A DNA stretch of 39,809 nt, from positions 1 through 39,809 of the forward strand of contig JAUXWU010000118.1 of assembly GCA_030680085.1 (NCBI GenBank), read 5' to 3'. This document shows, piece after piece, positions 2,996-39,809 of the stretch. This DNA is from Rhodocyclaceae bacterium. Lineage in GTDB: Bacteria > Pseudomonadota > Gammaproteobacteria > Burkholderiales > Rhodocyclaceae. The position numbers and the translations under genes were made by a program. Positions within the stretch are counted from its first letter, which is position 1. Each line of letters starts with the position of its first letter. A model generated the notes under the pieces. The model ran no database searches. It was not told the DNA's origin and saw only the letters and a program-made list of their open reading frames with translations.

Positions 2996-4397
2996 CCGGG
3001 GGAGGGCGGGCCTCAACAGCCTCAATTTCCTGAATCTTCCGGGTGATCGTGTTGCGGCCGATGCCCAGCAATTGCGCCGCTTCGATGCGGCGGCCGCCGG
3101 TGGCTTTGAGCGTGCAGCGGATCAGTGTTGATTCAAAAGCCAGGCTCAGGTTTGCCCACACGCTGCCGGGCTGCCTGGCCAGCAGCTCATCCACCGTTGC
3201 CGCCAGGAGCGTCTGCCAATCGGCCGCACCGGGTGCGGTGCTGATATCGCGCATTTCGGCCGGCAGGTCGTCAATCTCGATTTGCTGCCCGGGCGCCATC
3301 ACGGTCAGCCAGTGACAAAGATTTTCGAGTTGGCGGACGTTGCCCGGCCAGGGCGCGGCTTGCAGGAATTTGAGCGCGCCCTCGGTCAGGCGCTTGGCTT
3401 CGACGCCGAGTTGTTGCGCGCTGCTCGCGAGGAAATGCCGGGCCAGCGCCGGAATATCTTCGCGCCGTTCCCGCAGCGGCGGCAGGCGCAGGCGGATGAC
3501 GTTGAGGCGATGAAACAGGTCTTCGCGGAACAGGCCATCCTTGACGCGCTGTTCGAGATTCTGGTGGGTCGCGGTGATGACGCGCGCATTGCTGCGCAGG
3601 GGCTCCCGGCCGCCGACGCGATAGAACTGGCCGTCGGAGAGCACGCGCAGCAGGCGGGTTTGCAGTTCGGCGGGCATGTCGCCGATCTCGTCGAGAAACA
3701 GCGTGCCGCCGGCGGCCTCTTCGAAGCGGCCGCGCCGCTGCGCGGCGGCCCCGGTAAAGGCGCCCTTTTCATGGCCAAACAGTTCGGATTCGAGCAGGTC
3801 GCGCGGGATGGCCGCCGTATTGAGGGCGATGAAGGGCCCGTCCCTGCGGGGACTGTGGCGATGCAGCGCACGCGCCACCAGTTCCTTGCCGGTGCCGGAT
3901 TCGCCGTTGATCAGCACCGTCGCATGGGATTGGGCCAGGCGACCGATGGCCCGAAACACCTCCTGCATCGCCGGGGCCTGCCCGAGAATTTCTGGCGCAA
4001 CGGGTTCGACGGCCGGCGCACCAGATTGGGGCGCAACCTGCTCCAGCGCGCGGCGAACCAGGGCGACGGCCTGATCGATGTCGAAAGACTTGGGCAGGTA
4101 TTCGAAGGCGCCGCCCTGAAAGGCCGCCACGGCGGAATCGAGGTCGGAATAGGCGGTCATGATGATGACCGGCAGATCCGGGTGGGCTTGTTTCACCTGA
4201 CGCAAGAGATCAAGTCCGCTCGCGCCGGGCATGCGAATGTCGGAGACCAGCACACGCGGCGCTGCCCCCGCGCCGAGTTTCGCCAGCGCCTCGTCGGCGG
4301 AAGCGAAGCTGACGCAATCAATGTTTTCGCGCGCCAGCGCTTTTTCGAGCACCCAGCGAATCGAACGGTCGTCGTCGACGATCCAGACGTCGGTCAT
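2973..4397 (-). CDS. ntrC: Nitrogen regulation response regulator NtrC
   Basis: Receiver, sigma-54 AAA+ (GESGTGKE, GAFTGA) and Fis HTH; directly downstream of ntrB. Confidence 0.96.
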   Translation of the reverse strand: MTDVWIVDDDRSIRWVLEKALARENIDCVSFASADEALAKLGAGAAPRVLVSDIRMPGASGLDLLRQVKQAHPDLPVIIMTAYSDLDSAVAAFQGGAFEYLPKSFDIDQAVALVRRALEQVAPQSGAPAVEPVAPEILGQAPAMQEVFRAIGRLAQSHATVLINGESGTGKELVARALHRHSPRRDGPFIALNTAAIPRDLLESELFGHEKGAFTGAAAQRRGRFEEAAGGTLFLDEIGDMPAELQTRLLRVLSDGQFYRVGGREPLRSNARVITATHQNLEQRVKDGLFREDLFHRLNVIRLRLPPLRERREDIPALARHFLASSAQQLGVEAKRLTEGALKFLQAAPWPGNVRQLENLCHWLTVMAPGQQIEIDDLPAEMRDISTAPGAADWQTLLAATVDELLARQPGSVWANLSLAFESTLIRCTLKATGGRRIEAAQLLGIGRNTITRKIQEIEAVEARPPPAPPLREG

Positions 4398-5500
4398 GCG
4401 GACTTACCCCTTTCATTATTTAGCGGCAGGCGCAGGGTGAAGCAGGTGCGACCGGGCGCCGACTCGGCTTCGATGCTGCCATGATGGTGCTGAACGAAGC
4501 TTTGTGCCAGCGCCAGCCCGAGCCCGGTGCCACCCTGCCTTCCCGAAACGAGCGGGTAGAAAATCCGGTCGCGGATTTCTTCGGGGATGCCGGGGCCGTT
4601 GTCGATGATTTGCAATTCCAGCGCCAGCCGGTAGCGTTTTTTGGCCAGCGTGACCTGACGGATCGCCCGGGTGCGGGTGATGATTTCTCCCGCGCCGTTC
4701 ATTGCCTGCGCGGCATTGCGCAGGATGTTGAGCAGGGCCTGAATCAATTGTTCGCGGTCGCCGGTGAGGTCGGGCAGCGAGGTGTCGTAGTCGCGCCGCA
4801 CGCGCACGCCGGGAAATTCGGCGTGGATCAGCCGCCGCACGCGTTCGAGGATTTCGTGGATGCTGATTTGCGTCGGCTGCATGGCGCGATGCGATGACAG
4901 CAGCCGGTGCAGCAGGTCCTGCAGCCGGTCGGCTTCGTGGATGATGACATCGGTGTACTCGCGGAGCGCCGCCGCGTTTTCCATGCCCGCCAGTTCGCGG
5001 TCGAGCAGTTGCGCCGAACCGCGGATGCCGCCGAGCGGGTTTTTGATCTCGTGCGCCAGGTTGCGGATCAGTTCCTGGGTGGCGCGTTGCTGCACGGCCT
5101 CCTGCTCTTCGCGCACCACGCGCAACTGCTGGTCGATGGGGCGAAATTCCAATAGCAGGCTGGCCGCGCCGGCCTCGATGGGACTGACGGTGCAGTCGAG
5201 GTGGAGCGGCTCGGTACTCATTTCGCCATGCTCACGCGCTACAACGATGTCGTGGCCGGTGTAGCTCCACTGGTTGGCGAGTGCGTTTTCGAGCGCGGCG
5301 ATCAGCGTCGACGGCGTGCCCAACAGTTGTGCCAACGGCTGGCCGAGGCAGGCGCGCTGGCTGACGGCGAAGAGGTTTTCGGCGGCAGGATTGCAGTGGC
5401 GAATCCGCAACTGGCCGTCCAGCAGGAGCACTGCGGAGGACAGCAGATCAAGCCCGGCGAATGCCGGGTCGGCTGGGCTGGGGTGGGTCTGGACGTTCAT
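4394..5500 (-). CDS. ntrB: Nitrogen regulation sensor kinase NtrB
   Basis: PAS plus HisKA (NLAHEIKNPLGGIRGSAQLL) plus HATPase; coupled to ntrC. Confidence 0.95.
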   Translation of the reverse strand: MNVQTHPSPADPAFAGLDLLSSAVLLLDGQLRIRHCNPAAENLFAVSQRACLGQPLAQLLGTPSTLIAALENALANQWSYTGHDIVVAREHGEMSTEPLHLDCTVSPIEAGAASLLLEFRPIDQQLRVVREEQEAVQQRATQELIRNLAHEIKNPLGGIRGSAQLLDRELAGMENAAALREYTDVIIHEADRLQDLLHRLLSSHRAMQPTQISIHEILERVRRLIHAEFPGVRVRRDYDTSLPDLTGDREQLIQALLNILRNAAQAMNGAGEIITRTRAIRQVTLAKKRYRLALELQIIDNGPGIPEEIRDRIFYPLVSGRQGGTGLGLALAQSFVQHHHGSIEAESAPGRTCFTLRLPLNNERGKSA

Positions 5501-25705: not shown

Positions 25706-26260
25706 TTAAGACCCCCCCGCGAGGGGGGCGAAGGGGGACGGGCGTTTCCCCAGTTTGCGCTGTAGCGTGCGGCGATGCATCTGCAGGGCACGGGCCGTGG
25801 CCGAGATATTCCCCTCATTTGCCTGCAATATGCGCTGAATGTGCTCCCATTCAAGTCGGCTGACCGACATGGGTTCGGCGGTGATGGCACCTTCGATTTC
25901 CGGGGTGGCATCCTCAAGGGCGGCGAGAATGGCGTCGATCTCTACTGGTTTGGCCAGGTACTGCATTGCGCCCAGCTTGATGGCTTCGACCGCGGTGGCG
26001 ATGCTGGCATAGCCGGTGAGCACGACAATGCGGCAGTCCTGCCGTGCCGCCAGCAATTCCGGGATCAGCGTCAGGCCTGAGGTGCCAGCCAGATTGAGAT
26101 CGAGCACGACAAGTTCCGGCGCCGCCTGCCGGATGACCGCCCGGGCCTCGTCCGGGCTGGTGACGCCGCGGGCGGGCATGCCACGCCGCACGAAGGCGCG
26201 CACCAGCACTGCATTGAAGGTGGCGTCGTCGTCGATAATCAGAATAGGAGCGGTGGTCAT
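25706..26260 (-). CDS. regA: RegA/PrrA/ActR-type response regulator
   Basis: Receiver plus short linker plus Fis HTH (HIQRILQANEGNISATARALQMHRRTLQRKLGKRPS), adjacent to a RegB-like kinase. Confidence 0.9.
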   Translation of the reverse strand: MTTAPILIIDDDATFNAVLVRAFVRRGMPARGVTSPDEARAVIRQAAPELVVLDLNLAGTSGLTLIPELLAARQDCRIVVLTGYASIATAVEAIKLGAMQYLAKPVEIDAILAALEDATPEIEGAITAEPMSVSRLEWEHIQRILQANEGNISATARALQMHRRTLQRKLGKRPSPFAPLAGGS

Positions 26261-27534
26261 GGTGAAATTCTATCCAGCGGTAGTTCGATGCGCGCCAGTC
26301 CGCCGCCACCCGCCGCGTTGGCGAGGACCAGTCGACCGCCCAGTCGATCGATGACGCCCTGTGTCAGCAGCAGGCCGATGCCGCTGCCGCCGCTGCCACC
26401 GAAATTGGCCGAAAACGGTATCCGGCCGGCCTGCCGCAGCACTTCAGCGGAAAATCCGGGACCCTGATCGCGCACCTCGATCACCAGCGTCGTCGCGTTC
26501 CATTGCACGCCAAGGACGATTTCGCCGCCGCCAACATTGGCGGCATTGTTGAGCAGGTTGATTACGCCCTGTTCCAGCGCCGGATCGGCGATGATTTCTG
26601 GCGTCGGCGGCTGTGCTGAAATCTCGACCCGGCTCGCGCAATGCGTTCGCTGCTGGCGCCAGCGACGATGAAGCGCGTCGATCCAGATATCGACGGCAAC
26701 GGCCGAGGCATTTTCAAGCCGGCCGACACCGGCACGCTCGGTCAGGCCGGTGAGGAGGGTCTTGCAGGCGGCAATCTGGCCGCGCAGGATGCCGATATCG
26801 GCACGCGCAGCCTCGTTCAAAGTGGTGTCATGCTCCAGTTCGCCGGCAATCACCGCCATGGTCGCCAACGGCGTGCCCAGCTCGTGCGCGGCGCCCGCCG
26901 CCAGGGCGCCCAGGGCGACGAGATGCTCGTCCCGCAGCGCCCGCTCGCTGGCGGCCGCAAGTTCGGCGTCGCGCTGACGGATGGTCGCCATCATGCGCAT
27001 GATGAACCAGGCCATCAGCGCCGCCGAAACCACGAAGGTCAGCCACATGCCGGAGAGGTGCAACTGCGCCGCGCGGCTGCCGTCGCCGATCGGCAACGGC
27101 ACGAACACCACCATCAGCGCCGAATAGGCGGCAATCGCCAGCCCGGTGACAACGACGACATAGGGGCGCGGCAGGGTCAGCGCCGCAAAGGCGACGGACG
27201 GCAGCAGCAGCGAAATCAGCGGATTGGTGGCGCCACCGCTAAAAAACATCAGGGCGGCGAGCGTCGCCAGATCGAGGCAAATCTGGCGGAACAGTTCGGC
27301 GGCGCTGGCCGCGGATATTGAACGGAAACGCCGCCAGGCAAAGCCGTTGAACAGGGCCGCGACGCCAATGATGGCGAGCAAGGGCAGCGCCATCAGCGGA
27401 ATGGCCAGCAGGAACGGGGCGACAAGAATTACCGCCGCCGCCAGGCCTAAGACGACCCAGCGCACGGCAATCAAACGGCGCAGGCTGGCGAGGGTTTGGG
27501 CGCCGTCCCAGCTCCGGCTCAGGTTCGATATCAC
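26257..27534 (-). CDS. regB: RegB/PrrB-type sensor kinase
   Basis: Multi-TM N-terminus; ALGALAAGAAHELGTPLATMAVIAGELE (H-box of RegB type), HATPase domain; GTG start inferred at 27534. Confidence 0.88.
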   Translation of the reverse strand: MISNLSRSWDGAQTLASLRRLIAVRWVVLGLAAAVILVAPFLLAIPLMALPLLAIIGVAALFNGFAWRRFRSISAASAAELFRQICLDLATLAALMFFSGGATNPLISLLLPSVAFAALTLPRPYVVVVTGLAIAAYSALMVVFVPLPIGDGSRAAQLHLSGMWLTFVVSAALMAWFIMRMMATIRQRDAELAAASERALRDEHLVALGALAAGAAHELGTPLATMAVIAGELEHDTTLNEAARADIGILRGQIAACKTLLTGLTERAGVGRLENASAVAVDIWIDALHRRWRQQRTHCASRVEISAQPPTPEIIADPALEQGVINLLNNAANVGGGEIVLGVQWNATTLVIEVRDQGPGFSAEVLRQAGRIPFSANFGGSGGSGIGLLLTQGVIDRLGGRLVLANAAGGGGLARIELPLDRISP

Positions 27535-27569: not shown

Positions 27570-28061
27570 CTAGAACTTGCCGTCGTCGAGCCGTGCGGGC
27601 AAATCGCGCGTTACCTGATCGAAGCGCAGAATTTTCTGGCCCTTGTGCTCCCGGAGGAAATCCTCGGCATCGGTGCGGGTGGCCAGCGGTATCAATTCGT
27701 GGCCCATCGGCCCCAGGACATCCGAGCCGATCACGTAGAAAGCATTTTTTGCGTCGACCTTCTGGAGGTTGTAATAATCGGTGACGGCAATCGTCATGAT
27801 GTCCTCGCGGCGGTGGTTCGGCGCATATTTGGGCAAATCGAACAGATATTTGAACATGTCCTTGGCGCCGTCGAAATGATGCGCGTGGCCGTTTCGGTAG
27901 AGCACCGTCGCCACCCAGTTCGGATATTTCGACACCAGCATGCCGCAGACGGGGCAAAGGTCGCGCGGCCCCGGCTTGGGCACGACGAGCGCCTGGGCGG
28001 AGGCCAGCCCCACCCAGACACAAAGTAAAACGATGAAAAAAACGCGCAGGCTACGCGGCAT
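27570..28061 (-). CDS. nosL: NosL-family copper-binding protein
   Basis: Signal peptide, PRDLCPVCGMLVSKYPNWVATVLYRNGHAHHFDGAKDMFKYLFD. Confidence 0.85.
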   Translation of the reverse strand: MPRSLRVFFIVLLCVWVGLASAQALVVPKPGPRDLCPVCGMLVSKYPNWVATVLYRNGHAHHFDGAKDMFKYLFDLPKYAPNHRREDIMTIAVTDYYNLQKVDAKNAFYVIGSDVLGPMGHELIPLATRTDAEDFLREHKGQKILRFDQVTRDLPARLDDGKF

Positions 28062-28672
28062 CAGGATTTGCCCTGCTGCTCCAGCATGCGCTTGCGCCGT
28101 TCGGCGCGATTTTTGCGGATCATGCTGACGTCCTGCGACATGTCGGTGTAGGCGGCCAGTAGCGCCTGGTCGAAATTGGCCAGCTCGCCGCCGTGGGCCG
28201 CCCGCGAGGCGGCAGCCGCGTCGGCCGTGCCATAGGCGACTTTGCTGCGCTTGGTCATCACGCCCTTGAGCGACGAGCCGACGAGGAAGCGCGCCTTGTC
28301 GACATCGACCAGCGGTTTCAGCTCGGCGGGCGAAGCATTGTCGCCGACCCAGATCGCCTTCGGCTCCCGGTCGATATTGATCGAGAGACTGATGGCGGCG
28401 CAGTGGAGCGAGCAGGTGCCGTCGGCGAGGTCGTCGCCGTAGTGGATCAGCATGCGCGAGTGGTGAAACTGCTTGCGGTCCATGCCGCAATAGGGGCACT
28501 TGGGATACTTCTCGATGTCGCTTTCATGCGCCTGTGGATCCGGCGCCTGCTTGGGAATGAACTGCGTCGGCGTGCCGTCGCCATGACATTGGGCGGCGTG
28601 GGCGGGGGTGGCGCTGACAGCGAGGCCGACGCCGGCGAACAGGGACAATTTCAGGGCTGCGCGACGATCCAT
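28061..28672 (-). CDS. Second NosL-like protein (CPYCGMD, CSLHC)
   Basis: YPKCPYCGMDRKQFHHSRMLIHYGDDLADGTCSLHCAAISLSINIDREPKAIWVGDN; overlaps the start of the adjacent nosL. Confidence 0.8.
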   Translation of the reverse strand: MDRRAALKLSLFAGVGLAVSATPAHAAQCHGDGTPTQFIPKQAPDPQAHESDIEKYPKCPYCGMDRKQFHHSRMLIHYGDDLADGTCSLHCAAISLSINIDREPKAIWVGDNASPAELKPLVDVDKARFLVGSSLKGVMTKRSKVAYGTADAAAASRAAHGGELANFDQALLAAYTDMSQDVSMIRKNRAERRKRMLEQQGKS

Positions 28673-28735: not shown

Positions 28736-28750
28736 GCGGCATTTTGTCGC
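28736..28750. promoter_or_regulatory. RegR/RegA-box-like site GCGGCATTTTGTCGC
   Basis: Fits GNGRCRTTNNGNCGC at every defined position; divergent nosL-like/TonB receptor intergenic region. Confidence 0.65.
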
Positions 28751-28828
28751 GTGCGACGACACGTCGCAGAGCAGCGGCCCGTCATCTGACTAGGATGGCG
28801 GCTCCCTCATTTCTCCTCCACTCTATCC

Positions 28829-31048
28829 ATGAAACAGCACCGATTTTCCATCGCGCTAGCCATCGCGGCCCTGCCTTTCACCTTGCACGCTCAGGACGAC
28901 GAACTGTTCACTGTCGTCGTGACGGCCCAGAAAATCCAGAGCTTGAATGCCACTCGTCTCGGTGGCGCAGACCTGGCTCCCTTGCGTCCGGCCACCAGCG
29001 ATACCGCCAGCCTGCTGCGTGACATTCCCGGCGTCAGCCTCTACGGCGCCGGCGGCGTTTCCAGCCTCCCGGCGATTCACGGCCTTGCCGATGACCGGCT
29101 GCGCATCAAGGTCGATGGCATGGACCTTATTTCCGCCTGCGGCAACCACATGAATCCGCCACTCTCCTACATCGATCCGACCCACGTCGGCAGCATCAAC
29201 GTATTTGCCGGCATCGCGCCGGTAAGCTCCGGCGGCGACAGCATCGGCGGCACGATTCTGGTCAATTCCCCCGCTGCGGAATTTGCCAAGGCCGGGCAAG
29301 GCCTGCTCCTCAAGGGCGCGGCAGGTGCCTTTTACCGCAGCAACGGCAATGCCAATGGCGGCAACCTTTCCGCGACCATCGCCAACGAAAAACTGAGCAT
29401 GACCTACAGCGGTTCGACCGCCAAGGCCGATAACTACACGGCGGGCGGCGACTTCAAGCCAGCCGGGCTTGCGGCAGCCGGTCGCGGCTGGCTGGCTGGC
29501 GACGAGGTTGGCTCGTCCATGTATGAGTCGACCAATCAGTCGCTCAAATTCGCGCTGCGCCACGAAAACCACCTGGTCGAGTTCAAGTACGGCGTGCAGG
29601 ACATCCCTGTCCAGGGCTGGACCAACCAGCGCATGGACATGACCGGCAACGACAGCACACAACTCAACCTGCGTTACCGGGGCCAGTTCGACTGGGGCGC
29701 ACTGGAGGCGCGTGCCTATAACGAAAAGACGCGGCACGTCATGCAATTTGGCGACGACAAGCTTTACTGGTATGGCTCAACCACGGCGGTGGACGGCATT
29801 CCCTGCGTGCCCAGCGGCGGCACCACCGGTTGTGCGGCGGGTATGCCGATGGATACCCAGGGCGACAACACCGGCGTGGTCGTCAAGGCGGACATCATCC
29901 TTTCGGCGCGCGATCTGCTGCGGGTGGGTGGCGAGGCCCAGCGTTATCGCCTCGACGACTGGTGGGATCCGTCCGGCAAAGGAATGTGGCCCAATGTTTT
30001 CTGGAATATCAACAATGGCGAGCGTGATCGTCTGGCCCTCTTCGGTGAATGGGAGGCGCAGTGGAATCCGCAATGGCTGACGCAATTGGGCCTGCGGCAC
30101 GAAACTGTCGATATGAATGCGGGCAATGTGCAGGGCTATAACGTTCTCTCCTATGGCGCTGATGCAACTGCCTTCAATGCCAAAGACCGCAAGAAGACCG
30201 ACCACAATCTGGACTTCACCGCACTGGCGCGCTATACGCCGGATGCCACGCAAACCTTCGAGGCCGGTTATGCCCAGAAAACCCGCTCACCCAACCTCTA
30301 CGAGCGCTACGCCTGGTCGACGGGCGGGATGGCGATGCGCATGATCAACATGACTGGCGACGGCAACGGCTATGTCGGCAATCTCGACCTGAAGCCGGAA
30401 GTGGCCCATACCCTGAGCGCCACCGCCGACTGGCACGATGCCGCGAAGGAGCAATGGGGCTTCAAGCTCACGCCCTACCTCACCTACGTCGATGATTACA
30501 TCGATGCCGCCCGGATCGCCACCACCTACACATCGACACAGTACGTCTATCTCCGCTTCGTCAATCAGTCTGCCCGGCTGTATGGCCTGGATCTCTCGGG
30601 CCACTTCCCGTTGGCGAAGATCGATGGTTACGGCAGTTTCACCGCAACCGGCAAGTTGAATTACGTGCGCGGCAAGAACCGCACGACCGGCGACGATCTC
30701 TACAACATGATGCCGCCGAACGCGAAACTGGCTGTGGTGCATAAGCTCGGTGCCTGGACCAATACCCTCGAAACCGAACTGGTGAGCGCCAAGGACCAGG
30801 TTAACGCAGAGCGCAACGAAGTCCGGACGTCCGGCTATGGCCTGATCCACCTGCGCAGTAGTTACGAGTGGAAGCAGGCGCGCTTCGATATCGGTATCGA
30901 GAACCTGTTCGACAAGCTCTACAAGCATCCGCTGGGCGGCGCTTACCTGGGCCAGGGCAAGACCATGTCCGGAACGATTGTCCCCTGGGGCGTTACCGTT
31001 CCCGGCATGGGCCGCTCGATTTACGCCGGGGTGAACGTCAAGTTCTGA
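28829..31048 (+). CDS. TonB-dependent receptor, OprC-like (probable copper receptor)
   Basis: Plug and barrel architecture; C104-GNH-M108 and H303-V-M305 match the CxxxM/HxM pattern of OprC. Confidence 0.85.
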   Translation: MKQHRFSIALAIAALPFTLHAQDDELFTVVVTAQKIQSLNATRLGGADLAPLRPATSDTASLLRDIPGVSLYGAGGVSSLPAIHGLADDRLRIKVDGMDLISACGNHMNPPLSYIDPTHVGSINVFAGIAPVSSGGDSIGGTILVNSPAAEFAKAGQGLLLKGAAGAFYRSNGNANGGNLSATIANEKLSMTYSGSTAKADNYTAGGDFKPAGLAAAGRGWLAGDEVGSSMYESTNQSLKFALRHENHLVEFKYGVQDIPVQGWTNQRMDMTGNDSTQLNLRYRGQFDWGALEARAYNEKTRHVMQFGDDKLYWYGSTTAVDGIPCVPSGGTTGCAAGMPMDTQGDNTGVVVKADIILSARDLLRVGGEAQRYRLDDWWDPSGKGMWPNVFWNINNGERDRLALFGEWEAQWNPQWLTQLGLRHETVDMNAGNVQGYNVLSYGADATAFNAKDRKKTDHNLDFTALARYTPDATQTFEAGYAQKTRSPNLYERYAWSTGGMAMRMINMTGDGNGYVGNLDLKPEVAHTLSATADWHDAAKEQWGFKLTPYLTYVDDYIDAARIATTYTSTQYVYLRFVNQSARLYGLDLSGHFPLAKIDGYGSFTATGKLNYVRGKNRTTGDDLYNMMPPNAKLAVVHKLGAWTNTLETELVSAKDQVNAERNEVRTSGYGLIHLRSSYEWKQARFDIGIENLFDKLYKHPLGGAYLGQGKTMSGTIVPWGVTVPGMGRSIYAGVNVKF

Positions 31049-32831: not shown

Positions 32832-33437
32832 TTAGCGCGCCAACCACCATGCGCAGACAGCCACCCAGCCGAGCAGCAACACGACCGCCAGCGGGCGGGT
32901 ACTGCTGATCGCCTCGTCGGGCCGTCCCTGCTTCAATCCGGTGAACATCGCCTGCACCAGATTCTCGCGATGGGCAAGACTGCTGACGACGACGCCGCCC
33001 ACGTGCAGCAGGGCCACGGCCAGCATGCCCGACGCCAGCGCTTCATGCACTTCCTCCAGCCACTCCCCACCGATGTCTTGATAGACAAGCCAGCCGCTCG
33101 CCCCAGCCAGCAGCCCCAGGCTCAGCAAGGCAAGGATGGCCCAACCGCCTGCGGCATTGTGGCCGGCATACTGCGACTCTTCACGCCGGAACAGGCCAGA
33201 GACATAGTCCAGCACCGCCCCCGGGCCGCGCACGAAGCTGGAAAAACGCGCATGGCGCGTACCGAAAACTCCCCAGAGCAGGCGAAACAGCACGACGCCG
33301 ACGACGGTGCCGCCGGCGAAGGCATGCACCAGACGCCATTCCTCGCTCTCGCCGGTAATCCAGGCCAGCGCGAACGCGCCAACCAGCAACCAGTGGCCGA
33401 TGCGCACCGGCCAGTCCCAGACCCGGATCTTGTTCAT
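32832..33437 (-). CDS. Cytochrome b561-type membrane protein
   Basis: RVWDWPVRIGHWLLVGAFALAWITGESEEWRLVHAFAG. Confidence 0.92.
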   Translation of the reverse strand: MNKIRVWDWPVRIGHWLLVGAFALAWITGESEEWRLVHAFAGGTVVGVVLFRLLWGVFGTRHARFSSFVRGPGAVLDYVSGLFRREESQYAGHNAAGGWAILALLSLGLLAGASGWLVYQDIGGEWLEEVHEALASGMLAVALLHVGGVVVSSLAHRENLVQAMFTGLKQGRPDEAISSTRPLAVVLLLGWVAVCAWWLAR

Positions 33438-33438
33438 G

Positions 33439-33918
33439 TCAGTCCTTCCTGTGCTTGCCGTTCGGCATCACGATCTCGCGCTCGCGATAACTTCCATCCG
33501 CCGCCCTGGTATGGCAGGCCGCGCAGTTGGCCGGCGTTTTCACCTTGGCATGCGTCCAGTCGGCGCGCGGTACCTCGCGGTGTTCGCGCAGGAACCAGTC
33601 CGTCTGCGTGAGCCGCGGCAGCTCGCCGGCTGGTGCCGTCCTGCCAGCGCCGACTTTTCTGCCGCCCGCATTGCGGACGTGAAAGTCTTCGAGGGTCTGG
33701 CGCGTTTTCTCATCAAGGCTCGCGTTGTCGCCGTAGTGCTTGTCCAGCGAGCGCATCACGCGCCGCCAGTCGTCCGCCACCAGCAACTGCGGGGGAAAGG
33801 CCACGTGGCAGCTCCCGCACTCGGCCTGGAAGGCCGGCGGCGCATTGAGGGGCAGGCGCAGGTCGTCCGCATAGGCGGCCAGCGGGAGCAATGCAATCAG
33901 CAACAGGGATTTGTTCAT
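33439..33918 (-). CDS. Diheme cytochrome c (DHC-like)
   Basis: CGSCH and CAACH heme motifs; between b561 and SHP-like genes. Confidence 0.9.
   Translation of the reverse strand: MNKSLLLIALLPLAAYADDLRLPLNAPPAFQAECGSCHVAFPPQLLVADDWRRVMRSLDKHYGDNASLDEKTRQTLEDFHVRNAGGRKVGAGRTAPAGELPRLTQTDWFLREHREVPRADWTHAKVKTPANCAACHTRAADGSYREREIVMPNGKHRKD
33633..33658 (+). repeat. Dispersed repeat, copy G (inside the DHC gene)
   Basis: GTGCCGTCCTGCCAGCGCCGACTTTT; encodes KVGAGRTA in the cytochrome. Confidence 0.88.
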
Positions 33919-33919
33919 G

Positions 33920-34324
33920 TCAGCGTCCTCCGGTCAGAAAAGCGATGTAGTCGGCCTTCTCGGCCGGGTTGCATTCGCGGCCTACGACTTCGGTGCAGTT
34001 GCGCTTGAACCACTTCTCCACCTTGGCCGGATCGGTGAAGCGTTCCGCATTCGCGGCAGGCGCCAGCGGCTTGATCGACTTGTCGGTGACGACATGGCGG
34101 CCGGCCTGTGCTGGCGCATCGGTATGGCAACTGGCGCAGGACGACAACTTCGCCGAAACGCCAAAGCGGCGCGCATGGAACTCGGCACCGCGCTGGGCGG
34201 AAGGCTGGAAGCCCGCAGCCTGTTGCGCGGCTTCCGTGCGATAACCTGCCAGCAGTTCGGCGGGTGTGGCAGCCTGGGCGGATGCGGCGCACAGGACAGT
34301 CAGGACAGCAATGACGATTTTCAT
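33920..34324 (-). CDS. DUF1924 / SHP-like cytochrome c
   Basis: Signal peptide; CASCHTDAPAQAGRHVVTDKSIKPLAPAANAERFTDPAKVEKWFKRNC. Confidence 0.88.
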   Translation of the reverse strand: MKIVIAVLTVLCAASAQAATPAELLAGYRTEAAQQAAGFQPSAQRGAEFHARRFGVSAKLSSCASCHTDAPAQAGRHVVTDKSIKPLAPAANAERFTDPAKVEKWFKRNCTEVVGRECNPAEKADYIAFLTGGR

Positions 34325-34480: not shown

Positions 34481-35479
34481 TCAGCCGATCAGGATCAGGT
34501 TGGAGCGCAGGATCATGGCCGTGGCAACTGCCGCGAAAATCAGATAGCCGACGGCAGCGGCGCCGGCCAGCCGCGCGGCGGTGCGCGGCACGACCTCGGC
34601 CAGGCTGGGGACGCGGCGAAAGGCCTGCAGGGCGCCGACCGCCAGGCCGGCGGCGGTGGCGGCGAACAGGGGGATGTAGAGCAGGTAACCCTGGTAGTCG
34701 TATTCCGGCTTGAGGATGCAGAACGGGCAATGGTGGTGCGGATGTTCGTAGATGTAGAGCGAGACGAAAGAAATGATGCCGGCGATGGCGGCAACAAATG
34801 CGGCGGCGCTCGCCAGGGCGACGAGATAACCGCCGCGCCTTGTTGCGGCGTGGAGTGTCGCCATCAGTAGCGCCGCGCCCAGCGCGGCATAGAAACCGAT
34901 CATGGCCGGCTGCGGCGGCAAGGCGGCAAGGTCGCCGGTGAGTGTCTGGGCACCCGCCGAAAACAGGCTGCCGCAGCAGGAGGTGATGACATCGGCTTTG
35001 AGGCCGAGAAAATACCAGAGCTGGAGTAGGAAATTCGCCGCCAGCAGCGGCACGAGCGCCAGCAGCAGCGCGTATTTGATGCGCACCAGGGGATAGTCCG
35101 GGGCGCGGGTATCGACGTGGTTGATGACCAGCCAGAGGGCGGTCAGGAAGAAGCTGGCTATCTGAGCGATCAGGGCCGGATAGCCATAGGCATTGACGTT
35201 CAAGACCCCGGCGGCGCACATCGCACCGACGAAATGCCCCGCCAGGCGGTCGGCATTGAAGATGAACAACAGCAGGGCGATGCCCTGGATGGCGAGCACG
35301 AAGCTCAGCAGCGTCGAGAAGAGATAGGTGCGGCGCTCCAGTTGCAGTTGCCGTTCGGAGCCGCTACGGATGTTCCAGTGGCGGATGATCTGCACGGCGA
35401 AAGGCGCGGCAGCCAGCAGCATGGCCAGCCCCAGGCCGGCAGCCAGCAGCAGGGCGATGATCGTCGGCTGGAATATCAC
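34481..35479 (-). CDS. Uncharacterised polytopic membrane protein with HPHHHCPFC and CC motifs
   Basis: SLYIYEHPHHHCPFCILKPEYDYQGYLLYIPLF; VITSCCGSLF; overlaps the ABC ATPase gene. Confidence 0.85.
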   Translation of the reverse strand: MIFQPTIIALLLAAGLGLAMLLAAAPFAVQIIRHWNIRSGSERQLQLERRTYLFSTLLSFVLAIQGIALLLFIFNADRLAGHFVGAMCAAGVLNVNAYGYPALIAQIASFFLTALWLVINHVDTRAPDYPLVRIKYALLLALVPLLAANFLLQLWYFLGLKADVITSCCGSLFSAGAQTLTGDLAALPPQPAMIGFYAALGAALLMATLHAATRRGGYLVALASAAAFVAAIAGIISFVSLYIYEHPHHHCPFCILKPEYDYQGYLLYIPLFAATAAGLAVGALQAFRRVPSLAEVVPRTAARLAGAAAVGYLIFAAVATAMILRSNLILIG

Positions 35480-36150
35480 GCTGCCACGATGCGTCCGTCA
35501 CGCATGTTGATGACGCGATGGACGGCGGCCGACTGGATCACTAGCGGATCGTGGCTGCTCAGAATGACCGTCCGCCCCGCGCTGGCGAAGCCGTCCAGGA
35601 TGGCGAGAAATTCCCTGGCCAGGGTGGTGTCGAGGTTGGCGGTCGGCTCGTCGGCGATCAGCACTTCCGGGTCGTTGATCAGCGCCCGGGCAATGGCGAC
35701 GCGTTGCTGCTCGCCGCCGGAGAGCCACTCGACCTTCGCGTCGCGACGGTGGGCGAGTTGCAGTTGATCGAGGAGCATGGCGGCCTTGGCGCGCACCTCA
35801 TGTTGCGGGCGGCCGCAGGGCGCGGCGGGCAGCATGACGTTTTCTTCCGCCGACAGGCCGCGGATCAGGTTGAACTGCTGGAAGACGAAGCCGAAGCTGC
35901 GGCGGCGCAGTTGCGTCAGGAAGCGCTCGGGCAGGCCGGAGATGTCCTCGCCCTTGAAGCGCGCACGGCCGCTGGTCGGCCGCGCCAGGCAGCCGATCAG
36001 CGTCAAGAGCGTGGTCTTGCCCGAGCCGCTGGGACCGCAGATGGCTGTAACCCGATTTGCCTCGATGCTGAGATTGATGCCATCCAGGGCCCGGAACTCG
36101 TTGTGCTGTCCCTGGTTGAACACCTTGCGAACGTCGGCTAGTTCGATCAT
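35476..36150 (-). CDS. ABC transporter ATP-binding protein (LolD/MacB type)
   Basis: GPSGSGKTTLLTLIGCLARPTSG, LSGGEQQRVAIARALINDPEVLIADEPTANLD. Confidence 0.94.
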   Translation of the reverse strand: MIELADVRKVFNQGQHNEFRALDGINLSIEANRVTAICGPSGSGKTTLLTLIGCLARPTSGRARFKGEDISGLPERFLTQLRRRSFGFVFQQFNLIRGLSAEENVMLPAAPCGRPQHEVRAKAAMLLDQLQLAHRRDAKVEWLSGGEQQRVAIARALINDPEVLIADEPTANLDTTLAREFLAILDGFASAGRTVILSSHDPLVIQSAAVHRVINMRDGRIVAA

Positions 36151-37283
36151 GAACGCATGGCCGCGTCGGGGTCGGTGGTCGCCGCGCGCCAGATCGGCAC
36201 CAGCACCGCCGCCGTGTAGGGAATCACCGTGAAAAAGCCCAGCGTCACCACGGCCAGGCCGTCAATCTCGGGGGTAAGTTGAAAACGCGGGTAGAGCACG
36301 GACCAACCCTTGAGCACCGGTTCGAACAATATGCCGCCAGCGTAAAACACATGCAGATAGGCGGCGAGATAGCCGAGCAGAAAAGCCGTGAGCGAAATCA
36401 ACACGCCCTCCCAGAGCTTCATGCGGATGACGTCGCCGGTCTCCCAACCAATCGCTTTGAGGATGCCGATCTCGCGCTTTTCCTCGGCGGAAAGCCCTGC
36501 CGCCTTGTCCCAGGCGAGAATGGCGAAGGCCAGGATCGCGCCCGAGAGAATCGCCAGGACGATACCCTCGCGCCAGTCAAAGATCGACGCATAGGTGCGC
36601 AGCACTTCCTCGCGCAGGATGGGCCGCGAATCGGGCAGCGCGGCGGCCAGCTTGGCGGCGACGTTCCGCACCTCCTGCGGATTGGCCACGGAGAGCGTGA
36701 TATCGGTGTAATGCCCGGCCGGGAAACCGAAGAAGTCACGGAAATCGTCTGCGTGCATCAGCACCAGATCGGCGCTGATCAGCTCGGAGTCATGCGGCAG
36801 GATGTCGGCGACGATGAAGGAGTACAACTTGCCCGAATAGGCGCGGAAGGAGATGCCGGTCTCCTGCGTCAGCCCGCGTATGCGCTCAAGGCCCGAGCCG
36901 ATCACGATGGTGCCGCGCTCGACGTCGCCGGCGGTGGGCGCCATGAAGGTGTAGTTGGCCTTGATCACGGGGTCGTAGTAGTAACCCCACAGCCGTCCTT
37001 CCATCTTCTGCACGCCGCGGATCTTCCCGATCTTGTCCAGGTAGCCGGGTGGAATCAGGTCGTGGCGACCCGCCACCATGCGCTGCAGGATGAGTTCGGG
37101 CGAATCGGCGAGCACGCGCGTCGCCTCGTGGCGCAGCGCATGGGAAAACAGCGTCACCGAGGCCAGCACGAACACCAGTAGCGTGTAGACGGCCAGCAGG
37201 CCGAGGTTCTTCGCCTTGCGCCGCGCCAGCGAAGCCAGCGTGAAGTCAATCAGCGCGCGCTGCTGTTCTATCCAGATACGCAT
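36147..37283 (-). CDS. ABC transporter permease (FtsX/MacB type)
   Basis: N-terminal TM, large periplasmic domain, C-terminal FtsX-like TMs; coupled to the ATPase. Confidence 0.9.
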   Translation of the reverse strand: MRIWIEQQRALIDFTLASLARRKAKNLGLLAVYTLLVFVLASVTLFSHALRHEATRVLADSPELILQRMVAGRHDLIPPGYLDKIGKIRGVQKMEGRLWGYYYDPVIKANYTFMAPTAGDVERGTIVIGSGLERIRGLTQETGISFRAYSGKLYSFIVADILPHDSELISADLVLMHADDFRDFFGFPAGHYTDITLSVANPQEVRNVAAKLAAALPDSRPILREEVLRTYASIFDWREGIVLAILSGAILAFAILAWDKAAGLSAEEKREIGILKAIGWETGDVIRMKLWEGVLISLTAFLLGYLAAYLHVFYAGGILFEPVLKGWSVLYPRFQLTPEIDGLAVVTLGFFTVIPYTAAVLVPIWRAATTDPDAAMRS

Positions 37284-37581
37284 GACTATGGCTTGGCGGA
37301 ATGATCAAGCTACCGGTGGGGAAATGTTCCAGCGCCAGGGGGTGATCCTGAAAGGCGGCATGCCGGTCGGCCTGGGAAGGATGGCGCGTATAGCGCGCTT
37401 CGGTGAACAGCGCGAGGTCGGTCAGCCCCAGGCGTTCCGCCAGCGCGCGGTTGGCCTCAATGCGCACGGCGTGCTGTTTACGCAGCAGTGCCGCATCGAC
37501 AAAGCTCATGGCGAAACCTAACAGCGCCACGGCCAGGCAGGGCAAGACAAGGCGGCGCTTGTTGAATGATCTGATGAGCAT
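37246..37581 (-). CDS. Small membrane-anchored protein upstream of the permease
   Basis: MLIRSFNKRRLVLPCLAVALLGFAMSFVDAALLRKQHAVRIEANRALAERLGLTDLALFTEARYTRHPSQADRHAAF...; same operon. Confidence 0.65.
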   Translation of the reverse strand: MLIRSFNKRRLVLPCLAVALLGFAMSFVDAALLRKQHAVRIEANRALAERLGLTDLALFTEARYTRHPSQADRHAAFQDHPLALEHFPTGSLIIPPSHSHAYLDRTAARAD

Positions 37582-37643: not shown

Positions 37644-38141
37644 TCAGTGCTTCATCTTGCTGTGATCCATGCCGCCCATGTCACCCTTGGGCGGCGCGTC
37701 CGCTGTTGGCTTTTTCACCGGCGCTTCGATGGTCTTGCTGCTGCCGTCGGCAAAGCCAAGCGTAATGGCGACCTGGTCACCCTCCCTGAGCGACACCTTC
37801 ATGTCGATCAACATGACGTGGTAGCTGCCGGGTTTGAGCAGTACCTCACCCTTGGCCGGCGCGACGATCTCCTTCACCTGGCGCATCCGCATCACGCCAC
37901 CATCGTTGATGTGGTTATGCAACTCGGTGATGCTGGCGGCCGTGGCGGCTGCGCTGACCAGCGGGATGGCCTTGTCGCCGGCGTTACGGAGTGTCATGAA
38001 GGCGCCGGTTGCCCTGGCGCCGGGAGGCGCCAGGCGGACACGGGGATCGACCACGCTGATCTGGTCGGCCATGCCGGCGGCAGCGGCCGGGGTGGCAAGA
38101 CTCGTCAGGACAAGGGCGGCGAGCGAGAGAAGGATTTTCAT
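37644..38141 (-). CDS. Periplasmic copper chaperone PCu(A)C with Met/His-rich tail
   Basis: DPRVRLAPPGARATGAFMTLRNAGDKAIPLVSA..., ELHNHINDGGVMRMRQVKEI...; tail GDMGGMDHSKMKH. Confidence 0.93.
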   Translation of the reverse strand: MKILLSLAALVLTSLATPAAAAGMADQISVVDPRVRLAPPGARATGAFMTLRNAGDKAIPLVSAAATAASITELHNHINDGGVMRMRQVKEIVAPAKGEVLLKPGSYHVMLIDMKVSLREGDQVAITLGFADGSSKTIEAPVKKPTADAPPKGDMGGMDHSKMKH

Positions 38142-38387: not shown

Positions 38388-39299
38388 ATGCGCCAATTTC
38401 TCCTGCTCTTCTTCGCCGCTGCCCTTGCCGGAACAGCCGGCGCCGGCGACACGCCCGTTTCACCCATTGCGCCGAAAGTGGCCGACCCGGTCGCCATCGC
38501 GGCGGCGGTGCAGGAACTCGGCGGCATCAACGGCATTGCGCTGGCCTGTGGCCAGAAGGAGGTGGTGGCCCGCGCCAAAACACTGATGATCATGCGCGTG
38601 CCGAAAACGCGCGAATACGGCGAGATCTTCGAGAAGGCGACCAATGACGGTTTCCTGGCCCAGTCGGCGGGCAAGGCCTCCTGCCCCAGCCGCGCCAGCG
38701 TCGCGGCGCGGCTGGAAACCGCGGCACGGCCGCTGCCGGCGGCGCCCAGCCACCAGGCAATCACCGAAACCGCCGCGCCCGCGGTCGGCGTCAATCCGCG
38801 TTACCTGCTGCAAGACACCCAGGGCCGCGCCTTCATGGACAGCGACTTTCGCGGCCGCTTCCAGTTGATTACCTTTGGCTACACCTTCTGTCCCGACATC
38901 TGCCCGACCACGCTGATCGAGATGGCCGAGGTGCTCAAGCTGCTGGGCGCCGACGCGGCGCGACTCCAGCCCATTTTCGTCTCGGTCGATCCCGAGCGCG
39001 ACACGCTCGATGTGCTGCGGAGCTACACCGGCTTTTTCGACCAGCGCATCCTCGGCGCCACCGCTTCGCCGGAACTGGTGCGCCGCGCCGCCGACAACTT
39101 CAAGGTGCGCTACGAAAAGGTCCAGGAGACAGGCGCCGCGCCCCTGCAGTACGCGGTCGACCACTCGGCCGGCATGTACCTGCTCGGCCCCGGCGGCGAG
39201 TTCATCACCAAGTTCAGCTACGCCACGCCGGTCGCCGACGTGGCGACGCGCATCCGCGCGCACATGGCGCAGGCGCCGACGACCCCGGCCGGAAATTGA
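38388..39299 (+). CDS. SCO1/SenC-family protein with extra N-terminal Cys-containing domain
   Basis: FGYTFCPDICPTTLIEMAEVLKLLG..., VDPERDTLDVLRSY; ~100 aa N-terminal extension. Confidence 0.92.
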   Translation: MRQFLLLFFAAALAGTAGAGDTPVSPIAPKVADPVAIAAAVQELGGINGIALACGQKEVVARAKTLMIMRVPKTREYGEIFEKATNDGFLAQSAGKASCPSRASVAARLETAARPLPAAPSHQAITETAAPAVGVNPRYLLQDTQGRAFMDSDFRGRFQLITFGYTFCPDICPTTLIEMAEVLKLLGADAARLQPIFVSVDPERDTLDVLRSYTGFFDQRILGATASPELVRRAADNFKVRYEKVQETGAAPLQYAVDHSAGMYLLGPGGEFITKFSYATPVADVATRIRAHMAQAPTTPAGN

Positions 39300-39355
39300 C
39301 AGAGGTCAAGGCCATCCGACCGGCAGGGGACTACTGTGTGCGTCAAATTGCCGCA

Positions 39356-39370
39356 GCGGCGTTTTGCCGC
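39356..39370. promoter_or_regulatory. RegR/RegA-box-like site GCGGCGTTTTGCCGC
   Basis: Fits GNGRCRTTNNGNCGC at every defined position; 67 bp upstream of the nosZ ATG. Confidence 0.6.
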
Positions 39371-39437: not shown

Positions 39438-39809
39438 ATGAATAAATTTTCAGTGCGGACCGTCGCGCTATTTCTGGCGGCGGGACTCGGACTTGCGGCG
39501 GCCGGCGCGGCCTGGTCGCAGGAATCTTTGCAAGACGTGATGAAGCGGCGCGGCCTGAGCCAGCAGGACCTGCTGGCGGCGTCCAAGACCTACGTACCCA
39601 CCGGCAAGCGCGACGAGTTCGTCGCCTTCAGTTCCGGCGGCCAGTCGGGTCAGGTCATCGTCTATGGCATTCCCTCGATGCGCATCCTCAAGTACATCGG
39701 CGTGTTCACGCCCGAGCCCTGGCAGGGCTACGGCTTCGACGAGAACTCGAAAGCCGTGCTGCGTCAGGGCAACATCGACGGCAAGGAAATCAACTGGGGC
39801 GACACCCAC
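39438..39809 (+). CDS. nosZ: Nitrous-oxide reductase NosZ, N-terminal part (truncated by the window edge)
   Basis: LQDVMKRRGLSQQDLLAASKTYVPTGKRDEFVAFSSGGQSGQVIVYGIPSMRILKYIGVFTPEPWQGYGFDENSKAVLRQGNIDGKEINWGDTH; Sec-type signal without twin Arg. Confidence 0.92.
   Translation, partial: MNKFSVRTVALFLAAGLGLAAAGAAWSQESLQDVMKRRGLSQQDLLAASKTYVPTGKRDEFVAFSSGGQSGQVIVYGIPSMRILKYIGVFTPEPWQGYGFDENSKAVLRQGNIDGKEINWGDTH

Follow-up and report, generated by a model that had tools for sequence, protein, structure and literature searches.

The outer-membrane receptor OprC of Pseudomonas aeruginosa holds copper in its crystal structures through C143, M147, H323 and M325, and its residues M286, M341 and M343 take part in silver sites (PMC8610252). 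A related but distinct importer, CrtA (BfrG) of Bordetella, takes chelated Cu(II) and is sometimes accompanied by SCO or PCuAC (PMC12914433). On the side of regulation, the cco and nos genes are known targets of the RegBA/PrrBA/ActSR regulon, and in other bacteria nos genes are known to be controlled by RegA. The RegA sites mapped by ChIP and footprinting in Rhodobacter share a 15-bp form, exemplified by GCGACCGTTCGTCGC at ccoN (PMC5359404). The nosA gene of Brucella is predicted to lie under NnrR (PMC1274295).

The window, a stretch of 39,809 nucleotides that makes up one entire contig in the 2.44-Mb draft genome of a Rhodocyclaceae bacterium, encodes a TonB-dependent receptor in which an earlier note had recognized a copper-binding pattern of the OprC kind. 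The gene and the codons of its putative metal site are arranged as follows:

28829–31048, plus strand: TonB-dependent receptor of the OprC-sister clade, 739 residues (open reading frame, Pfam, profile, fold and tree)
29138–29152, plus strand: plug motif C104-G-N-H-M108, corresponding to OprC C143xxxM147 (profile alignment, column conservation)
29633–29635, plus strand: codon of M269, corresponding to OprC M286 of the methionine track (profile alignment, conservation)
29735–29743, plus strand: barrel-wall motif H303-V-M305, corresponding to OprC H323xM325 (profile alignment, conservation, model)
29843–29851, plus strand: loop M339-P-M341, corresponding to OprC M341 and M343 of the methionine track (profile alignment, conservation)

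The product carries the Pfam Plug and TonB_dep_Rec barrel domains, and the two peptides cited in the note, SACGNHMNPPLSY (C104 and M108) and TRHVMQF (H303 and M305), are indeed present in the 739-residue frame. In a profile alignment to solved OprC chains, C104, M108, H303 and M305 fall on C143, M147, H323 and M325, so the CxxxM/HxM pattern is not a chance match. Among 139 relatives, drawn from the same family and from other proteobacteria, every one keeps H303 and M305, and 138 keep C104 and M108, where the remaining one has a gap. All four ligand residues are also kept in 24 of 24 OprC proteins. The same four columns hold different residues or gaps in 57 hemin-type and other TonB receptors, with one methionine at the M108 column. 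Beyond the ligands, OprC M286, M341, M343 and M387 align with M269, M339, M341 and M386 of the receptor, and these counterparts are conserved, with OprC M339 replaced by A337. M269, M339 and M341 are invariant in the receptor clade and form a partial match to the methionine track of OprC. The plug motif is invariantly CxNHM in the receptor clade, as against CxxRM in OprC.

With respect to curated families, the receptor reaches 109 bits on the OprC/NosA model TIGR01778, which has a cut-off of 472, and 156 bits on the TonB-hemin receptor model TIGR01785, which has a cut-off of 317. A single-sequence search of the PDB returns OprC entries as its sole matches, and a profile of 59 relatives matches OprC at E 1e-35. 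In the AF2 model (pLDDT 88.3, pTM 0.87), CxNHM sits in the plug, with H303 and M305 in a barrel strand. When the PDB is searched by fold with this model, the best 28 matches are all OprC chains, at E 5e-42; the first protein after them reaches 3e-33. Over its length, the receptor is about 20% identical to OprC. In a tree of 100 receptors, the receptor clade and OprC are two monophyletic sisters (SH-aLRT 98), the window receptor does not fall inside the OprC clade, and the hemin-type and other receptors branch outside the pair. The TIGR01778 cut-off and the tree together rule out filing the receptor as OprC/NosA; it is a member of a distant sister clade of these importers, outside the curated family.

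The higher score on the hemin model prompted consideration of a receptor for hemin or another siderophore-type ligand, with the copper motif incidental. However, that score lies well under the model's own cut-off, the hemin-type receptors lack every one of the four ligands and occupy another clade, and OprC comes first in the PDB whether the search is by sequence or by fold, which leaves a hemin-type receptor very improbable. Within the receptor clade, the window receptor matches those of Sedimenticola, Thiobacillus and Azoarcus at 69–72%, as against 59–62% for same-genus receptors (L093–L096), and this closer kinship suggests horizontal transfer or an old duplication.

The distribution of the two clades across genomes bears on function. 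In 200 genomes of the family, the receptor occurs in 74, true OprC in 41 and both in 2, where 15 would be expected (P 3e-7, by a Fisher test that ignores shared ancestry and after removal by hand of three short or OprC-derived matches). In genus g48, one genome (G194) carries the receptor and another (G048) carries OprC at the same chromosomal spot; both flanks, including PCuAC upstream, are 84–88% identical, and the receptor genes themselves are unalignable. The same exchange between syntenic flanks is seen in genus g67, with lower flank identity. The near-exclusion and the in-place swap in two genera are good evidence that the receptor clade does the same job as OprC/NosA. The proposal of an OprC-like copper receptor finds good support in residue mapping, model fold, tree, exclusion of OprC and in-place exchange.

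A variant of this reading retains the fold and the site and assigns them another substrate: in place of free ions, a copper chelate or copper bound to a peptide or protein. Chelate uptake by CrtA favors it, as do H107, M501 and M505, which are invariant in the receptor clade and absent from OprC. Yet the receptor retains all of the OprC ligands and some of the methionine track, and the swap with OprC at one locus suggests the same substrate, so that uptake of complexed copper is regarded as unlikely in comparison with uptake of the ions themselves.

Around the receptor, the window encodes further copper-related and regulatory proteins:

25706–26260, minus strand: RegA/ActR/PrrA-type response regulator (best match NF033791)
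26257–27525, minus strand: RegB-type sensor kinase, start codon uncertain (domain search; clusters with the RegB neighbours of other loci)
27570–28061, minus strand: NosL2, 163 residues, with CPVCGM (Pfam NosL, E 6e-32)
28061–28672, minus strand: NosL1, 203 residues, with an RR-type signal-like N-terminus and CPYCGM (Pfam NosL, E 2e-10)
37644–38141, minus strand: PCu(A)C periplasmic copper chaperone (Pfam)
38388–39299, plus strand: SCO1/SenC copper chaperone (Pfam)
39441–39809, plus strand: nosZ of the Sec-dependent clade II, first ~123 codons only, at the contig end (TIGR04246, E 2e-34)

The receptor had been described as divergent from two overlapping NosL-type genes, and this arrangement holds: NosL1 and NosL2 score 41.9 and 111 bits on Pfam NosL (PF05573), above the gathering cut-off of 24, and the two genes overlap by one base (TGATG). 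The response regulator has a receiver domain and a Fis-type HTH, and NF033791 is its best match by far, at 175 bits against a cut-off of 250 that none of 200 family genomes exceeds. The PCuAC, SCO and nosZ genes are real, and the description of them as part of the same block as the receptor is loose, because they sit 6.6–8.4 kb away behind a two-component system, a cytochrome operon and an ABC cassette.

These intervening genes recur elsewhere. The cytochrome operon (33439–34324 and 32832–33437) encodes a DUF1924 cytochrome, a DHC diheme cytochrome and a cytochrome b561 beside a QseBC/PmrAB-like two-component system, and in the same-genus loci L050, L059 and L065 the receptor is likewise followed by this set of genes. 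The cassette (34481–37581) comprises LolD/FtsX-like ABC components, a 332-residue membrane protein with an HPHHHCPFC stretch and with no match in Pfam or NCBIfam, and a 111-residue protein; its four genes recur in L036, L039, L044, L065 and L078, and in some of these loci NosL or nosZ lies close by.

The gene content of the window invites the view, put forward in the earlier note, that copper uptake here is a route dedicated to N2O reductase, with the receptor, the NosL pair, PCuAC, SCO and nosZ as one functional unit. All of these lie within 12 kb, RegA-type boxes are common to the receptor and nosZ, and several relatives (for example L044, L057 and L036) have the receptor gene within or close to a nos-type cluster. 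Comparison across genomes argues against such a unit. The receptor and nosZ show no association in the 200 genomes, nosZ being detected in 47 of the 74 genomes with the receptor, and not in the other 27, as compared with 71 of the 126 others (OR 1.35, P 0.37). NosL adjoins the receptor only in the window among 140 loci, the nearest cases elsewhere (L036, L037 and L065) being about 7–10 kb away, which rules out this adjacency as a conserved unit. The specific neighbours that recur most often beside the receptor are PCuAC and RegBA rather than nos genes. In 35 of 139 loci a PCuAC gene stands no more than 5 kb away, in genomes that mostly hold only one or two copies, and regBA adjoins the receptor in many loci, as it lies near it in the window. 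Genes for ExbB, ExbD and TonB are found within the same 5 kb in 18, 13 and 8 of the 139 loci, often directly adjacent. A dedicated unit is accordingly judged distinctly improbable on gene content. Shared control does have support, RegA-type boxes standing both between the receptor and NosL genes and before nosZ. The lack of association with nosZ, taken together with these common boxes, points to a general copper importer that RegBA probably keeps in step with the nos and oxidase genes.

Two observations concern nosZ itself. Pairs of nosZ with equal profile scores lie 4.7–7 kb apart in five genomes (G019, G080, G023, G029 and G088), and the break of the window contig within nosZ could result from such a duplication. 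In one relative (L092), nosZ lies in parts at 1271–2551 and about 3797–4549; an intein was suspected there and is ruled out, since the frame is broken by an insertion of ~1.2 kb.

The RegA-type box was defined as GCGRC-N5-GYCGC, 15 bp in length, and searched for up to 300 bp upstream of genes. The 156-bp region between the receptor and NosL1 holds two such boxes, and a tandem lies before nosZ:

28736–28750: RegA-type box GCGGCATTTTGTCGC, receptor/NosL1 intergenic region, 93 nt upstream of the receptor ATG
28753–28767: second RegA-type box GCGACGACACGTCGC, 76 nt upstream of the receptor ATG
39340–39370: tandem RegA-type boxes upstream of nosZ, starting at 39340 and 39356, 16 bp apart

The number of boxes in the window, 4 found with 2.3 expected, is not above chance, and the case for them rests for that reason on position and comparison. 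A box precedes 61 of 140 receptor genes, as against 2.7% of control stretches, mostly 60–140 nt before the start, whereas other spacer lengths occur in 0–4 of the 140; about half of the receptor clade is without a perfect box. Upstream of clade II nosZ in the family genomes (L263–L282), a box is present in 17 of 20 cases, and in 9 of the 20 tandem boxes stand exactly 16 bp apart. Among family loci, 33 of the 48 that have a detected RegA carry the box, as compared with 1 of the 11 that have none (P 4e-4, Fisher, shared ancestry ignored), and presence of the receptor is itself associated with RegA in the family genomes (OR 4.1).

A pattern search of the window's own genome finds the strict, AT-core form of the box at three sites: one is that of the receptor, one precedes a metal-efflux operon, and the third apparently falls within a coding sequence. 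The second of these (G000:C136:1409-1423, L307) lies just upstream of an operon for a membrane-fusion protein and a CusA/CzcA-like RND efflux pump. The boxes might accordingly belong to a different, perhaps copper-responsive, regulator; besides the strict box at the efflux operon, this would fit the presence of a box in only 5 of 24 OprC genes. The form of the box, however, matches the RegA footprint and ChIP sites (PMC5359404), its occurrence follows the presence of RegA, and regBA is a frequent neighbour, so that a regulator other than RegA is considered somewhat unlikely. Transcription of the receptor is probably under RegBA redox control together with the nos genes, with the boxes as predicted RegA sites.

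In conclusion, the receptor is likely an energised outer-membrane copper importer, a sister and equivalent of OprC/NosA that feeds periplasmic chaperones and is probably controlled by RegBA. Copper would first be caught by the methionines of the outer loop and then passed to a buried site formed by C104 and M108 on the plug and by H303 and M305 on the barrel wall. Pulling of the plug by TonB would release the copper into the periplasm, where PCuAC and SCO, and here also NosL, may take it over and deliver it to copper enzymes, among them cbb3 oxidases and NosZ. RegBA, encoded next door, would control the receptor through the two boxes shared with the NosL promoter, and boxes of the same kind stand in tandem before nosZ.

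Many copper atoms are required by N2O reductase, and denitrifiers are known to release N2O when copper is short. It is a tentative but serious possibility that the CxxxM-HxM copper importers include a second lineage, so far without a name, which takes the place of OprC across many beta- and gammaproteobacteria and, by way of RegBA, ties copper uptake to the redox state. Outer-membrane copper import would then be raised along with N2O reductase and the oxidases by electron-acceptor conditions, and not only by copper shortage, and redox control of uptake alongside nosZ would constitute a new link between copper supply and N2O removal. If the clade is the copper importer of many Rhodocyclaceae, Thiobacillus-like and related denitrifiers without OprC, the curated OprC models miss the main copper entry point of these organisms.

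Among known systems, the RegBA/PrrBA/ActSR regulon is matched by the RegA-family regulator encoded in the window and by the form of the box; it differs in its described targets, among which a search of the open-access literature turned up no copper receptor. ZnuD of Neisseria is likewise a metal-ion TonB transporter of similar fold, but ranks below OprC and PhuR in the fold search, at 14% identity. CrtA shares TonB-dependent copper uptake linked to respiration (PMC12914433); unlike the receptor clade, in which the Cys and Met ligands are invariant, it lacks conserved Cys and Met residues and is usually paired with a PepSY protein. With respect to OprC and to NosA of P. stutzeri, the receptor clade is set apart by its low identity and profile score, its separate clade, the CxNHM motif in place of CxxRM, the additional invariant M501 and M505, and the common RegA-type box. 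It shares with them the plug-and-barrel fold, the four CxxxM/HxM ligands and three silver-binding methionines of the track, often stands beside PCuAC as they do, and exchanges with OprC at the same locus.
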